Shown here: positions 13,283-39,915 of the stretch, in pieces
Layout: the number at the start of each line of letters is the position of its first letter
Position numbering within the stretch: the stretch's first letter is position 1
Assembly (NCBI GenBank): GCA_913055915.1
Contig: CAJXKL010000007.1
Location: 1 to 64,000, forward strand
Source of the DNA: an uncultured Candidatus Nemicrothrix sp.
GTDB lineage: Bacteria > Actinomycetota > Acidimicrobiia > Acidimicrobiales > MedAcidi-G1
DNA: 64,000 bases
Reading direction: 5' to 3'
Program-made: the position numbers and the translations under genes
Notes under the pieces: generated by a model
Database searches by the model: none
The model's input: the letters and a program-made list of their open reading frames with translations, nothing else
What the model was told of the DNA's origin: nothing

Positions 13283-14227
13283 ATGGGTAACCTCTGTGAA
13301 GGCCGAGTAGCGGTAGTGACCGGTGCAGGCCGGGGCATCGGACGCGAACACGCGCTGCTCCTGGCTGAGAACGGTGCAAAGGTCGTGGTGAACGACCTCG
13401 GAGGCGACGCCGCCGGATCGGGCACCGACCTGTCACCGGCTCAGGAAGTCGCTGGCGAGATAGAGGCCATGGGTGGCGAGGCCGTGGTAAACGGCGCCAA
13501 CGTCGCGGACTTCGACGCCGCAGGCACCATGGTTCAACAGGCCATCGACACCTGGGGTCGCCTCGACATTCTCGTTAACAACGCCGGGATCCTCCGGGAT
13601 CGTATGGTCTTTTCGATGTCTGAATCCGACTGGGACGCCGTGATCGATGTCCACCTGAAGGGCACCTTTGCTCCCGCCCACCACGCAGCCGTCCACTGGA
13701 GGGAAAAGGCGAAGTCGGGCGACTACGCCCCGGAGGAACTGTTCGGTCGGATCATCAACACGTCCTCCCCATCCGGCATCTACGGAAACGTCGGCCAGTG
13801 CAACTACGGCGCTGCCAAGGCAGGGATCGCCGCCTTCACGGTCATCAGCGCCATGGAACTCGTCCGGTACGGGGTGACGGTGAACTGCCTGGCCCCCGGC
13901 GCATTCACCCGGATGACGTCCGGCCTGGCCGGTTGGGAGTCCATGGACGAGGAAACCAGGGAGGCCATGAGCCCCCGCTGGATAGCAGTGCCCACCGTGT
14001 GGCTCTGCAGTGAGGCCGCCCAGAACGTGACCGGCCGGGTATTTGACGTGCATGGCAGCCAACTGGGCATAGCGGAGCAGTGGCATCTCGGACCGACCGC
14101 GGTCCAGCCCGACGACCCCGCTGACTTGACTGACGTGATGGCCGGTCTCATGGCCGACGCTCAGCTCAACTCCGACATGCAGGGGATGCCGGCCGAGGGC
14201 CCGGGGCGACCAGGCCGGGGCTTGTAG
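13283..14227 (+). CDS. SDR family oxidoreductase (multifunctional-enzyme-2/HSD17B4-like)
   Basis: Short-chain dehydrogenase of 314 residues, longer than the classical 250. Cofactor motif TGAGRGIGREHALLLAENGA, then VVNDLGGD and LVNNAGILRD; catalytic Ser in NTSSPSG and Tyr/Lys in YGAAKAGI. The REHAL after the glycine motif, the DLGGD segment and the insertion before the serine (EKAKSGDYAPEELFGR) are typical of peroxisomal D-bifunctional-type 3-hydroxyacyl-CoA dehydrogenases. This fits the acyl-CoA dehydrogenase gene next door. ATG at 13283 has AGGAG about 11 bases upstream. Confidence 0.87.
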   Translation: MGNLCEGRVAVVTGAGRGIGREHALLLAENGAKVVVNDLGGDAAGSGTDLSPAQEVAGEIEAMGGEAVVNGANVADFDAAGTMVQQAIDTWGRLDILVNNAGILRDRMVFSMSESDWDAVIDVHLKGTFAPAHHAAVHWREKAKSGDYAPEELFGRIINTSSPSGIYGNVGQCNYGAAKAGIAAFTVISAMELVRYGVTVNCLAPGAFTRMTSGLAGWESMDEETREAMSPRWIAVPTVWLCSEAAQNVTGRVFDVHGSQLGIAEQWHLGPTAVQPDDPADLTDVMAGLMADAQLNSDMQGMPAEGPGRPGRGL

Positions 14228-14241
14228 GGGGCCAGCCCCCT
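14226..14241 (+). terminator. Hairpin immediately after the SDR stop codon
   Basis: AGGGGGC (14226-14232) and GCCCCCT (14235-14241) form a 7-bp inverted repeat that overlaps the stop codon, about 48 bases before the acyl-CoA dehydrogenase start. The closing two-base loop implies that 6 pairs with a 4-base loop is the realistic fold. It may modulate read-through. Confidence 0.5.
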
Positions 14242-14288
14242 GCTAGCGCCTGCCAGCAAACCCCACCAGCAGGCCATCCAGGACCACC

Positions 14289-33400: not shown

Positions 33401-33982
33401 ATGCGCGAGACTCGTTCCATGGCCTGGATTGAGACGGTTCCGGACGGTGAATGGGAGTCAGGTGGAGGACACCTCGCCGATATGTATGGCAGGGTCGTCG
33501 ACCCGGAGAACGGACGGGTCGACCATGTCATGGCCGTCCACTCACTCAACCCACAGAGCCTCGCCGCCCACCAGGGCCTCTACGAGTCGGCAATGGCCGG
33601 GACAGCTTCACTACGCAAGGTCGAGAGGGAGATGATCGCCCTGGTCGTCAGCGTCCAGAATGAGTGCCACTACTGAACAACCCACCACCGGCGCGGTCTG
33701 CGCCGACTGCTTCGCGACGACGACCTGGCTGCCGCCATCGAGTCCAATTGGACCACGGCGGACATCTCACCAGAGCGGCGGGCAATGCTCGAGATGGCTG
33801 CAAAGTTGACACGGGCACCGGGAGCCATGCTCGAATCCGATGTCAGCCAACTCCGCGACGTCGGGTTCAGCGACCGCGACATCCTCGACATCGTCGAGGT
33901 GACCGCCTACTACGCCTACGCCAACCGGATCGTCGACGGCCTCGGCGTGGGGCTCGAGGCCTGGATCCCAGAGGGCTCCTGA
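33401..33982 (+). CDS. Selenocysteine-containing peroxidase-related (AhpD/CMD-like) protein
   Basis: One 193-residue reading frame interrupted only by TGA at 33674-33676 (codon 92). Upstream reads AWIETVP, DHVMAVHSLNPQSLAAH and EREMIALVVSVQNECHY; downstream continues in the same frame as TTHHRRGLRRLLRDDDLAA, MLEMAAKLTRAPGAM, VGFSDRDILDIVEVTAYYAYANRIVDGLG. This is the whole peroxidase-related enzyme family (AhpD fold) whose active site is NxCxYCxxHH. Here the second cysteine is UGA, giving C89-x-x-U92, with H95/H96 following. A SECIS-like hairpin follows the UGA. An ordinary gene caller would report two broken genes. Expected role: thiol peroxidase or redox partner. Third gene of an operon with the aminotransferase-like and sulfotransferase-like genes. 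Confidence 0.85.
33689..33705 (+). ncRNA. Bacterial SECIS-like element
   Basis: Twelve bases after the UGA a perfect 6-bp stem CGGCGC (33689-33694) / GCGCCG (33700-33705) closes a GGUCU loop (33695-33699). Loop G-G-U lies 18 bases after the UGA, inside the window required for SelB-dependent recoding, and the string GGTCTGC equals the apical part of the E. coli fdhF SECIS. Confidence 0.8.
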
Positions 33983-34860: not shown

Positions 34861-35313
34861 TCAGCCTCCGGTCGTGTTGTCCGGATCGTCGTCGACGGAC
34901 CCGGATTGTCGGTGCAACGACCCATCCTCCCCCACGGCCACCGTCTCACCCGTCACCAGGGACGAATAGGTGGCCTCGTCGAGTACAACGACGGGCAGCG
35001 ACCGCCCGTACAACTCGCCGGCCACTATCGACCCGAGGGAGAGGATCTCGTCTGGTTCCAGGACGAGTATCGCCTCTGGGGCCGAGCCGCTTCGGATGGC
35101 CTCGAGGAGCACCGAACTGGAGGAACTGGATCCACGCCCCGAGGGCATGGCAATGACCCGCCCGGAGACCGTGCAGCCGTGCTGCGGATGGTGGTGGTCG
35201 ACTATCTCCCCCGTTCGGGGATCGACACCACCCCAGAAGCTGAGGGATTCATCGAGGCAGAGCACCTCTCCTGAAGCCGAGCCAGCCACCAACACAACCG
35301 GTTGTTCAGACAC
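34861..35313 (-). CDS. Aconitase X swivel (small) subunit
   Basis: A 150-residue DUF126-type swivelling-domain protein. Motifs: SFWGGVDPRTGEIVDHHHPQHG, VSGRVIAMPSGRGSSSSSSVLLEAI, ILVLEPDEILSLGSIVAGELYGRSLPVV. Serine-rich GRGSSSSSS is the phosphate/carboxylate-binding loop of the swivel. GTG at 35313 overlaps the end of the large-subunit gene by eight bases. With the large subunit it forms a heteromeric AcnX hydro-lyase (type II); type I enzymes have both domains in one chain. Confidence 0.82.
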   Translation of the reverse strand: MSEQPVVLVAGSASGEVLCLDESLSFWGGVDPRTGEIVDHHHPQHGCTVSGRVIAMPSGRGSSSSSSVLLEAIRSGSAPEAILVLEPDEILSLGSIVAGELYGRSLPVVVLDEATYSSLVTGETVAVGEDGSLHRQSGSVDDDPDNTTGG

Positions 35314-36568
35314 CTGACCACACCCTCTCATCGAGAAGCACCTTGCCGGCCACGGCCGACTCGACGCACTCGGAGGTACCGGCGAACACGACATCGACAC
35401 CCAGGTTGCCCGGTGCGTACCAGGCCCATTTGGCAGAGTCCGTCATCGCCGTGCCCGTCGTGTCAGCAAGTATCGCTGACACGTAGGTGCAGGTGTCGAC
35501 CACAAGGGCCACACCGGCGGACCGCAGCAGGTCGGCCCATCCCCGAAGCTCCAACTCAGCGAGAACCGAGCGGCCCGTTGAAACGTAGAAGTCCACGTCG
35601 GGGTGGACCCGCCTACCCGTCAGGAGGGCCACAACGACCTGGAACTCGTCGATCGAGTAGTGGGGTGTTCCGAGGCAGACGCTTGACAGCGCTGACCCAG
35701 AGACAGTGCAGAGCTGGTCGCGAGAAGCCCGCAGGTCGCTGGTTCTCACCTCCACGACCTCATGTGGATCCCTCCCACCCATGGCCGATTCGAGGGTTGG
35801 CGCCTCCGGTGTGCTGCCAACGGCGTGGAACATCCCGATGCTGCCGGCCGTTGCCGCACCTGCACCCAGGGCCCTCAGTCTCACCTCGCTGAGGGCCGTC
35901 GGCAGGCCTTCGATCACGGGAACCCGGGAACCCGATGCTGCTCCGACAACCGTCCCGAGCAGCGGATACACCTGGTCCAGGTCGAGCAGGTCGGGCGACA
36001 CGTCAAGGAGTCGAAAGAGGACTGTGGCACGACGGTTATCATCGAGGTGCAGGCCGGCGGCAGGTACCCGGCCCGTGATGGCGGCGGAGATGTCGATCAG
36101 GTCGCCGTAGCGGGCGGTGCGGGCACCCAGCACCGAGTTGGCAAAGACGATGGCATTCGACTCGGCCCAGGCCACCTGTTCGCCAAACGACGGGCGATTC
36201 TCCAGGTGGTACGGCGCACACGTCCATGTCGGCTGACAGCCCATCTCCTCGTACATCCCGGCCATCCGCCGAGCAGCCTCACCCTCAGCCTCATCCCCGC
36301 GGTACAGCTCGGGATGCAACAGGTCCAGAGAGGACACGTTGAGCGTGGTTGGTACGGCGACCGAGGCACCGCCCTCGACGAGGCGCCCGGCAAAGTCCAG
36401 CCCCGACTGCCCGTGGTAGAGACACGAATCAACGTGGGCGCCCGTGATGTCGAGCAGGTGGTCGACCCCCATCGATTCAGCCAGGCGCACGACGATACGC
36501 ATGGCCAACTGGGCAGCCGGGCCGGCATCTCCGGCTAGCCGTTGCCTGTCCTCGACGCTCAGGTCCAC
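35306..36568 (-). CDS. Aconitase X catalytic (large) subunit, probable cis-3-hydroxy-L-proline dehydratase
   Basis: A 420-residue DUF521 AcnX protein. Conserved runs: LDITGAHVDSCLYHGQSGLDFAGRLV, VPTTLNVSSLDLLHPELY, PTWTCAPYHLENRPSFGEQVAWAESNAIVFANSVLGART, AAITGRVPAAGLHLDDNRRA, PVIEGLP, CLGTPHYSIDEF, VDTCTYVSAI. Characterised AcnX proteins are cis-3-hydroxy-L-proline dehydratases in bacteria and mevalonate-5-phosphate dehydratases in archaea. The adjacent OCD-family reductase supports the hydroxyproline role. GTG at 36568 is chosen because TACGCT lies six bases upstream, a leaderless -10; reading upstream to 36625 is possible but poor. Confidence 0.85.
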   Translation of the reverse strand: MDLSVEDRQRLAGDAGPAAQLAMRIVVRLAESMGVDHLLDITGAHVDSCLYHGQSGLDFAGRLVEGGASVAVPTTLNVSSLDLLHPELYRGDEAEGEAARRMAGMYEEMGCQPTWTCAPYHLENRPSFGEQVAWAESNAIVFANSVLGARTARYGDLIDISAAITGRVPAAGLHLDDNRRATVLFRLLDVSPDLLDLDQVYPLLGTVVGAASGSRVPVIEGLPTALSEVRLRALGAGAATAGSIGMFHAVGSTPEAPTLESAMGGRDPHEVVEVRTSDLRASRDQLCTVSGSALSSVCLGTPHYSIDEFQVVVALLTGRRVHPDVDFYVSTGRSVLAELELRGWADLLRSAGVALVVDTCTYVSAILADTTGTAMTDSAKWAWYAPGNLGVDVVFAGTSECVESAVAGKVLLDERVWSGV

Positions 36569-36574
36569 CCGTTG

Positions 36575-36580
36575 AGCGTA
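36575..36580 (-). promoter_or_regulatory. -10 element for a leaderless aconitase X transcript
   Basis: On the minus strand TACGCT is followed by six bases and GTG (36568). No Shine-Dalgarno sequence precedes that GTG. Confidence 0.45.
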
Positions 36581-36631
36581 GGTCCTGGGTGACCACCGAC
36601 CCCAACCACCGCGTGGCGGCACCAACCAGCC

Positions 36632-37065: not shown

Positions 37066-39720
37066 CTAGTCCCTGGCGAGCACGGCGTGGGCGGCCGCCA
37101 GGCGTGTCGCGGGCAGGCGGGCGGGTGAGCACGACAGGTAGTCCACCCCAGCGGCCAGCAGGCGTGGAATCGAGAGCGGATCGCCAGCGTGCTCGCCGCA
37201 GACCCCGACCTTGAGGTCCGGGCGGGCTCTCCGCCCGCGAATTACGGCCAGGTCGACGAGCTCCCCCACGGCCGCTTCATCGAAGTGTTCAAAGGGATTG
37301 TGGTCGAGCAGCCCACGGTCCAGATAGAGGTCCATGAACCGGCCCCCGACATCGTCGCGGGAAAAGCCGAAGGTCAGCTGGGTCAGGTCGTTGCTGCCAA
37401 CTGAGAAGAAGTCAGCGTGCACCGCCAGGTCACCGGCTAGAAGGGCCGCCCTGGGGGTCTCGATCATGGTGCCAACCCGGGGTGGCTCACCCATTCCGAC
37501 ATCTACTGCCGCCTCCCTGACCCAGCCCACGGCTAGGGCCAACTCTGGGCCGGAGACCGTCAGCGGGATCATGACCTCGACCAGGGGGTTTCCTCCGGCC
37601 GCACGTCGGGTCATTACCGCTGAGAACAGGGCCGTCGCCTGCATCCTGTAGAGGCCGGGACGGAGGTGCGCAAGCCGTACTCCCCGGGTTCCCATCATCG
37701 GGTTGACCTCGGTCCAGTAGCGGGCCGACTTGAGCAGCGCCTGTCCCTCCGGGTCAAGTTCACCCCTCGCCTCGGCGACCACCAGGTCTCCGATATCCGG
37801 AAGGAACTCATGCAGGGGCGGGTCCAGGAGCCTCACCGTCACCGGCAGGCCATCCATCGCCTCGAGGATGCCCTCGAAGTCCGCCTGCTGGACAGCTCCA
37901 AGCTGTTCCAGGGCATCTGCTTCGACCTCGGCGGTCTCGGCCAGGATCATCGCCCTGACGAGGGACAGCCGGTCGGAGCTGAGGAACATGTGCTCCGTTC
38001 GACACAGGCCGATGCCGACAGCACCGGCCTCTCGGGCAGCTGCTGCGTCCTCAGCTGTATCCGCGTTCGCCCTGACCCCGAGGGTTCCGGAGGCGATCTC
38101 GTCGGCCCAGTCCAGGATCGAGTCCAACTCGGGCGGCACCACCGACTCGACGACTCCCCGGTCACCCAGGGTCACCGAACCGGTGGTTCCGTCAATTGAG
38201 ATCGTGTCACCCTCGGACACGACGATGTCTCCGACGCGGAAATGGTCGTCTGCGACCTCGACCTGAACGGCACCGCAGACACAGGGAGTTCCCCACCCGC
38301 GTGCGACGACGGCAGCGTGACTGACCAGGCCGCCATGGGAGGTCAGGATTCCCTCGACGACCGCCATGGCCGCCACATCGTCAGGTGAGGTCGCCCGCCT
38401 CACGAGGATCACCTGTTCACCACGGTCCACCGCATCGATTGCGCCCTCGGTGGTCATGTAGGCGCGCCCGACCGCTGCTCCGGGAGATGCCCCGAGCCCG
38501 TGGGCGACCTCGGGGATGTCTGTCTCTGCGAAACCCACGTGCAGCACCTGTGACAGGTGGTCGGAGGTGATACGGACAACCGCCTCGTCCCTCGTGAGAG
38601 CGACACCCGGATCCTCCACAAGTTGGCTGGCGATCCGGAGAGCAGCGGCACCGGTGCGCTTGCCGACACGACACTGGAGGATGTGCAGGTGGCCCTGCTC
38701 AACGGTGAACTCGACATCGCACATGTCCCGGTAATGACCCTCCAGCAGTTCAAGTGCCCGGTCCAGCTCAGCGCCCTGCTCGGGCATGAGCCTGCTGAAA
38801 TCGGCAATCGGGAGGGTCGAGTGGGTACCCGACACGACGTCCTCTCCCTGGGCATTCGGGAGGTAGTCGCCGGTGGGATGGTCGTCGCCGGTTGCCGGAT
38901 CACGCGTGAACACGACGCCACTACCCGAGGAATCATCACGGTTGCCAAAGACCATGGCCTGGATGGTGCATGCCGTTCCGATGTCTCCGTCGATGCCCTC
39001 GTGTCTCCTGTACTCGACTGCCCGCTCACCCATCCAGGAGTCGAACACGGCCGCGACCGCTGTACGCAGTTGTTCGAACGGGTCGTCGGGAAGAGTCGCC
39101 CCGGGGTGGTCCGTCACGATCTGGTGCAGGTCGGCGATCAGGTCTGAGAGGGCTCCGGGGTCCAGGTCGGACTCGTGGCCGACACCGGCCTTCCTGACAG
39201 CCGATGCCACCACCTCAGGGAGGTCGGAGATGACACCCAGGACTACCGCGGCATAGGACTGTATGAACCGGCGATGGGAGTCGAGGGCGAAGCGTTCGTC
39301 GGTGGCTGCGGCCAGGCCCCTTGCCGTCTCGTCGTTGAGGCCCAGGTTCAGGACGGTGTCCATCATTCCCGGCATGGAGACTGCCGCCCCTGACCTGACG
39401 CTCAGCAGCAGGGGGTTGCCGGGGTCCCCCAGACGGCGTCCAGTGCGTTGCTCAAGGCCTGCCACTGCCACACGAAGACCCTCGTCCAGGTCGAGTGGCC
39501 AGCCCTTCGACAGGTATGCACGGCACACCTCGGTGGTGATCGTGAAGGCAGGTGGCACCGGGAGCGAGAGCGTCGTGGCCATGTCAGCCAGCGAAGCGCC
39601 CTTGCCACCCAGAAGAGCCCTCTTGCCGTCGGGCGCAAGGCTGTCGGCCTCGTCGATGAACACGATTGACGGTGCCACAGTGCCGCCTGGGTCGCCGTTG
39701 GCAGACCCACCTTCGCCCAT
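37066..39720 (-). CDS. ppdK: Pyruvate, phosphate dikinase
   Basis: An 884-residue enzyme interconverting pyruvate + ATP + Pi and PEP + AMP + PPi. N-terminal ATP-grasp domain (LGGKGASLADM, VPPAFTIT, RSGAAVSMPGMMDTVLNLGLND, GSGVVFTRDPATG), central phosphohistidine domain with the swivelling histidine in GGLVSHAAVVARGWGTPCV, and C-terminal PEP/pyruvate barrel (GIGLCRTEHMF, NPMMGTRGVRL, FFSVGSNDLTQLTFGFSRDD, CGEHAGDP). The ORF reads upstream through the tRNA gene, so the true start is ATG 39720, seven bases from a TACGTT -10 with no ribosome-binding site. Supports C3/C4 balance with PEP carboxylase further along. Confidence 0.94.
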   Translation of the reverse strand: MGEGGSANGDPGGTVAPSIVFIDEADSLAPDGKRALLGGKGASLADMATTLSLPVPPAFTITTEVCRAYLSKGWPLDLDEGLRVAVAGLEQRTGRRLGDPGNPLLLSVRSGAAVSMPGMMDTVLNLGLNDETARGLAAATDERFALDSHRRFIQSYAAVVLGVISDLPEVVASAVRKAGVGHESDLDPGALSDLIADLHQIVTDHPGATLPDDPFEQLRTAVAAVFDSWMGERAVEYRRHEGIDGDIGTACTIQAMVFGNRDDSSGSGVVFTRDPATGDDHPTGDYLPNAQGEDVVSGTHSTLPIADFSRLMPEQGAELDRALELLEGHYRDMCDVEFTVEQGHLHILQCRVGKRTGAAALRIASQLVEDPGVALTRDEAVVRITSDHLSQVLHVGFAETDIPEVAHGLGASPGAAVGRAYMTTEGAIDAVDRGEQVILVRRATSPDDVAAMAVVEGILTSHGGLVSHAAVVARGWGTPCVCGAVQVEVADDHFRVGDIVVSEGDTISIDGTTGSVTLGDRGVVESVVPPELDSILDWADEIASGTLGVRANADTAEDAAAAREAGAVGIGLCRTEHMFLSSDRLSLVRAMILAETAEVEADALEQLGAVQQADFEGILEAMDGLPVTVRLLDPPLHEFLPDIGDLVVAEARGELDPEGQALLKSARYWTEVNPMMGTRGVRLAHLRPGLYRMQATALFSAVMTRRAAGGNPLVEVMIPLTVSGPELALAVGWVREAAVDVGMGEPPRVGTMIETPRAALLAGDLAVHADFFSVGSNDLTQLTFGFSRDDVGGRFMDLYLDRGLLDHNPFEHFDEAAVGELVDLAVIRGRRARPDLKVGVCGEHAGDPLSIPRLLAAGVDYLSCSPARLPATRLAAAHAVLARD

Positions 39721-39727
39721 GCGGCGG

Positions 39728-39733
39728 AACGTA
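39728..39733 (-). promoter_or_regulatory. -10 element for a leaderless ppdK transcript
   Basis: TACGTT on the minus strand, seven bases before the ATG at 39720 and located between the tRNA-Leu gene and ppdK. Confidence 0.5.
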
Positions 39734-39768
39734 GCAGACCAGTACCGGGGTCGGTGGCCTCGAGGCAG

Positions 39769-39854
39769 TGCCCGGGGAGTGACTCGAACACTCACGCCGT
39801 CGAAACGGCGGCGGGTTTTAAGCCCGCTGCGTCTACCAGTTCCGCCACCCGGGC
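39769..39854 (-). tRNA. tRNA-Leu (anticodon TAA)
   Basis: Class II tRNA of 86 bases. Acceptor arms GCCCGGG / CCCGGGC pair perfectly with A as discriminator; anticodon stem GCGGG-CTTAAAA-CCCGC gives anticodon TAA; a long variable arm GCCGT-TTC-ACGGC-type hairpin and T-arm GAGTG-TTCGAGT-CACTC are present. The 3' CCA is not encoded. It reads UUA/UUG leucine codons. Confidence 0.95.
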
Positions 39855-39915
39855 GTGCCACCAACGCTACACACAGCGAGAGCTGCCGGCCCATGAGACG
39901 GCGCCACTGGCCTGA

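Follow-up and report, generated by a model that had tools for sequence, protein, structure and literature searches.

A predicted selenocysteine-containing AhpD-like protein with a conserved SECIS-type hairpin in an uncultured Candidatus Nemicrothrix sp.

Results

Gene, reading frame and genomic context

In the window (the whole 64,000-nt stretch analysed), a + strand frame (33401–33982) is closed by a terminal TGA (33980–33982) and has a single internal stop, TGA 33674–33676, which corresponds to residue 92 when counted from 33401 (the residue numbering used below unless stated). In the conventional ORF list, a 93-aa ORF stops at this TGA, in keeping with an earlier sequence-only reading, which had expected conventional annotation to record truncated genes here; annotation truncated or split at this codon is indeed likely. 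When the TGA is read through, the protein matches TIGR01926 (peroxid_rel; AhpD fold, CMD family) with 144.7 bits over residues 34–183, above the curated NCBIfam cut-off of 81.8 bits, and PF02627 (CMD domain) with 47.7 bits. Among solved homologues, phmmer returned 3c1l (2.2e-30) and also 2pfx, and the product is predicted to adopt the AhpD fold.

Profile match and homologue alignment delimit the coding sequence of the putative TIGR01926 selenoprotein as 33419–33982 (+). ATG 33419 (MAWIETVP) is most likely the true start, since a start codon is aligned here in 91 of 94 homologues extending this far (82 ATG, 9 GTG); few homologue start codons align further upstream, where ATG 33401 or GTG 33395 could also serve. 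The single frame proposed by the sequence-only reading, interrupted by TGA 33674 alone, stands, while its start at 33401 gives way to ATG 33419, from which the product is 187 aa long with selenocysteine (Sec) at residue 86.

Upstream on the same strand are genes for a class IV aminotransferase and a Sulfotransfer_5 protein. Each was found in 19 of 80 flanked loci, so only some of the group share this linkage, and it offers no clear clue to function. A two-subunit aconitase X (34861–36625, -), comprising AcnX swivel and large AcnX components that overlap as listed ORFs, is adjoined by an ornithine cyclodeaminase/mu-crystallin gene. Further along, a tRNA-Leu (UAA) gene (39768–39854, -) lies within the longest open frame of a PPDK gene (37066–39894), the start of which is therefore probably further downstream than that frame implies.

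Conservation of the in-frame TGA

TGA 33674–33676 (+) lies within the sequence ECHY[U]TTHH, where the CxxC motif has its second Cys, and homologue codons identify it as a candidate Sec codon at the second (reactive) position of CxxU. The frame and the TIGR01926 match thus agree with the placement first proposed from the sequence alone. A codon-usage scan of the whole window for TGA codons with same-frame coding signal on both sides gave only four (33674, 24880, 25702 and 60887 on the - strand). Of these, 33674 falls within one domain, unlike the other three, which resemble boundaries between successive genes and were rejected as internal Sec codons. At 33674 the coding signal runs on past the TGA and the frame holds no other disruption, as had been claimed.

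Homologues were collected from 41 related genomes and from a scan of genome contigs, the sample keeping only the 80 best loci of one scan, together with relatives. TGA was present in all 100 loci covering this codon (51–99% identity). After further members of the class had been added and duplicates removed, the expanded set held 112 sequences. Of these, 106 are non-redundant close homologues (≥51% identity), and all 106 have TGA at the codon, as do all five members of a divergent CxxU group; the one remaining sequence, a distant homologue, has TGT. Among the more distant homologues read at this codon, 13 have TGC or TGT. A TGA shared at one position by 100/100 loci and by 106/106 close homologues excludes chance. 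TGA alternating with TGC/TGT at one codon among homologues is the classic Sec/Cys pairing, and the alignment proposed in the sequence-only reading as a check gave just this pattern, with U in the close homologues and C in more distant ones. Scattered frameshifts in close relatives, which that reading had named as evidence to the contrary, were not seen; the homologues carry a clean TGA.

Most close homologues are from Acidimicrobiia; a few come from MAGs that carry the label Acidobacteria, Planctomycetota or Anaerolineae. In this sample, which covers the top 80 loci of one scan and relatives, none of the close homologues is of the Cys form, and rare Cys forms may exist in the clade beyond it. 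A search of phage records turned up no relative. At one locus in another genome (L156; G010:C39), GCC (Ala) replaces Sec/Cys, which suggests a paralogue without the reactive residue.

A SECIS-type hairpin downstream of the TGA

A bacterial SECIS-type hairpin (CGGCGC-GGUCU-GCGCCG; 33689–33705, +) was identified from its fold, a match to E. coli fdhF and synonymous conservation. It has a 6-bp stem and a 5-nt loop (GGUCU) that begins 18 nt after the UGA, and it agrees with published bSECIS constraints (PMC13188914). The 51-nt segment bearing it has a folding energy of -12.9 kcal/mol, which is unexceptional when compared with shuffled sequences (z = -0.27), so the case for a SECIS rests on synonymous conservation and on the fdhF match.

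Synonymous entropy was calculated for 54 testable conserved columns, those for which four or more synonymous codons exist. Its four lowest values fall on consecutive codons 97–100, which cover the 5′ stem and the loop. The loop sequence GGTCT is present in 96 of 104 distinct sequences, and its Gly codon is GGT in 102/105, compared with 19% GGT at other Gly codons. Leu is encoded by CTG (103/111) and Arg by CGC (100/106). The inner three stem pairs are kept in nearly all sequences, with more variation in the outer pairs, and the few sequences with another loop, mainly from the divergent CxxU group, have GATCT. The GGTCT loop is absent from Cys-type homologues. These data are strong evidence that the hairpin is under selection at synonymous sites, and the gene offers a clear example of a SECIS hairpin that shows itself solely through synonymous constraint on codons following a UGA.

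The E. coli fdhF SECIS (read directly from NC_000913.3) likewise has GGUCU starting 18 nt past the UGA, although its stem sequence differs. The likeness covers the loop and its distance from the UGA, and the lower part of the fdhF stem has no established equivalent here. A search of the genome for the pattern TGA-N18-GGTCTG gave 29 matches, vs 12 for a reversed control, and none of the other matches within the window is selenoprotein-like. An Rfam scan of the gene region gave no relevant match.

Selenocysteine machinery in the genome

The source genome (G000; 2.1 Mb in 41 contigs, 93.66% complete) carries selA, selB, selD and a tRNA-Sec (selC), each scoring above the curated cut-off of its own family. 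Absence of these genes, which the sequence-only reading had named as a ground for rejecting its proposal, can therefore be set aside. The tRNA-Sec, with a UCA anticodon, scores 67.5 bits and is on contig 5 (G000:C5:85914-86005); selA and selB, which adjoin each other, lie ~13 kb from it on this contig. An ARAGORN tRNA call within the window (14190–14285) was rejected as a tRNA-Sec, having the anticodon ‘gg’ and no Rfam match. selD (G000:C24:9663-10583, -; locus L117) is itself a selenoprotein gene, with the motif GAG-UGA-GCK (GAGUGCK), and an aminotransferase class V/cysteine-desulfurase-like frame is found directly upstream of it on the same strand.

Within the class, 198 genomes were compared. 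A close TGA orthologue occurs in 24 of them, and each of the 24 carries selA. Any TGA relative is present in 58 of the 198, and selA was found in 52 of these 58, the remaining six being incomplete assemblies (63–78% complete). The association between TGA relative and selA over the 198 genomes gives a Fisher p of 1e-5, a value that ignores phylogenetic relatedness. In one relative (G016; 85% complete) the TGA gene is present and neither selA nor an above-cut-off tRNA-Sec was found; as selA and tRNA-Sec are close together in relatives, this is probably an assembly gap.

Discussion

Reading of the TGA

It is nearly certain that TGA 33674 is read as Sec, giving a Sec-containing TIGR01926 AhpD-like peroxidase-related protein, as judged from the gene, its homologues and the genome that carries it. 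Among other explanations, readthrough in which misreading or a suppressor inserts Cys or Trp at the UGA, with no Sec involved, is the least improbable, though still very unlikely. Homologues do have Cys at this position, and readthrough alone could restore an enzyme. However, UGA is used here for ordinary termination too, not least at the end of this very gene, the genome has a complete Sec system, and the strong synonymous constraint on the hairpin loop would be needless for simple readthrough.

Considerably less probable again is that UGA acts as a real stop, leaving a pseudogene or only a truncated protein of ~87–93 aa. Beyond the standard code, in which UGA means stop, nothing specific speaks for this explanation, while in all homologues the protein is conserved past the TGA to the C-terminus, coding signal continues downstream of it, other disruptions are lacking and the supposed stop coincides with the catalytic residue. 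Least probable of all, and implausible given the clean TGA of the homologues, is that sequencing or assembly errors turned a TGC/TGT in the gene of an ordinary Cys-type enzyme into TGA: Cys-type homologues with these codons do exist, but the identical TGA recurs in 106 non-redundant close homologues, drawn from numerous assemblies and samples, and the conserved SECIS-type hairpin is missing from the Cys genes.

Under the preferred reading, as selenocysteine, SelB carrying the Sec-loaded tRNA (UCA) would bind the hairpin just past the UGA and Sec would be inserted instead of termination. Actual insertion of Sec is a prediction from these genomic features.

Predicted active site and mechanism

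The redox motif C-H-Y-U-T-T-H-H (33665–33688, +) was examined in the 111 TGA-type sequences. It starts with the putative resolving Cys (codon 33665–33667), followed by Tyr and then Sec, with the proposed relay His the second of the HH pair. Y91, U92 and H96 are found in 111/111 sequences, as is Glu77, 12 residues ahead of the Cys; C89 is found in 110, the remaining sequence being unreadable (X) at this position. In M. tuberculosis AhpD the relay comprises Glu118, Cys130, His132, Cys133 and His137 (PMC3141380). By spacing, these map to Glu77, Cys89, Tyr91, Sec92 and His96, so that all five positions of a Glu-Cys-(His/Tyr)-Cys/Sec-His relay are occupied at the M. tuberculosis spacing and Sec92 takes the place of Cys133, with Cys there and Sec here. 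His132 of AhpD corresponds to Tyr in the query, as also in P. aeruginosa PA0269 (PMC3141380).

The chemistry is most likely a peroxide or disulfide reductase cycle via a Cys-Sec selenenylsulfide. Sec would probably reduce peroxide or a disulfide partner, the upstream C89 could then act as resolving residue to form a selenenylsulfide with Sec, and Glu77, Tyr91 and His96 may assist the Sec chemistry. A peroxidase/reductase role is suggested here by membership of the fold family only.

Relationship to known families

AhpD-like CxxU selenoproteins are documented in a 2005 report on the Sargasso Sea (PMC1088965) and in the 2008 GOS survey (PMC2398784), and a 2026 review has an entry for an AhpD-like protein (TIGR01926, CxxU; example MCB9421940.1; PMC13188914). 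These sources bear out the statement in the sequence-only reading that such proteins exist among marine selenoproteins. The gene described here has the same NCBIfam family and motif as the catalogued AhpD-like selenoprotein family, with no difference emerging from a comparison by listed family and motif, and it is a well-supported further member. As the family is already catalogued, what the gene adds concerns taxonomy and annotation, not concepts: standard gene calling likely records this selenoprotein as truncated or split across a large marine Acidimicrobiia group. More tentatively, the close-homologue clade of TIGR01926 might be obligately Sec-containing and perhaps help to maintain Sec decoding in these marine actinobacteria, a possibility that we consider less likely to hold than to fail.

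Cys-type TIGR01926-like proteins with solved structures (3c1l, Mlr4105; 2pfx; 2oyo; 2prr) are homologous to the query over about 150 residues and have Cys where the query has Sec. In alignments, 3c1l and 2pfx have the same Glu...Cys-x-Tyr-Cys-x-x-x-His layout, but they are without the R-G-L segment that bears the hairpin loop in the query gene. NF041238 (AhpD_rel_CFYUT (seleno)protein, ‘hypothetical protein 1’) is a related AhpD-type CxxU family that is longer (357 positions), and the query scores 45 bits against it (cut-off 175) and so falls outside that family. Assignment to classical AhpD was similarly rejected (TIGR00777, 15.9 vs a cut-off of 191.95).

A second, divergent AhpD-like CxxU group (loci L139, L141-L144, L157, L158 and L161) has the motif CxYUxxAH and is ~34–40% identical to the query; following its UGA, GATCT or GACCT stands where the main type has GGTCT. 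Genomes of ~1 Mb from a single genus of the class carry this group, which in other genomes accompanies the main type.
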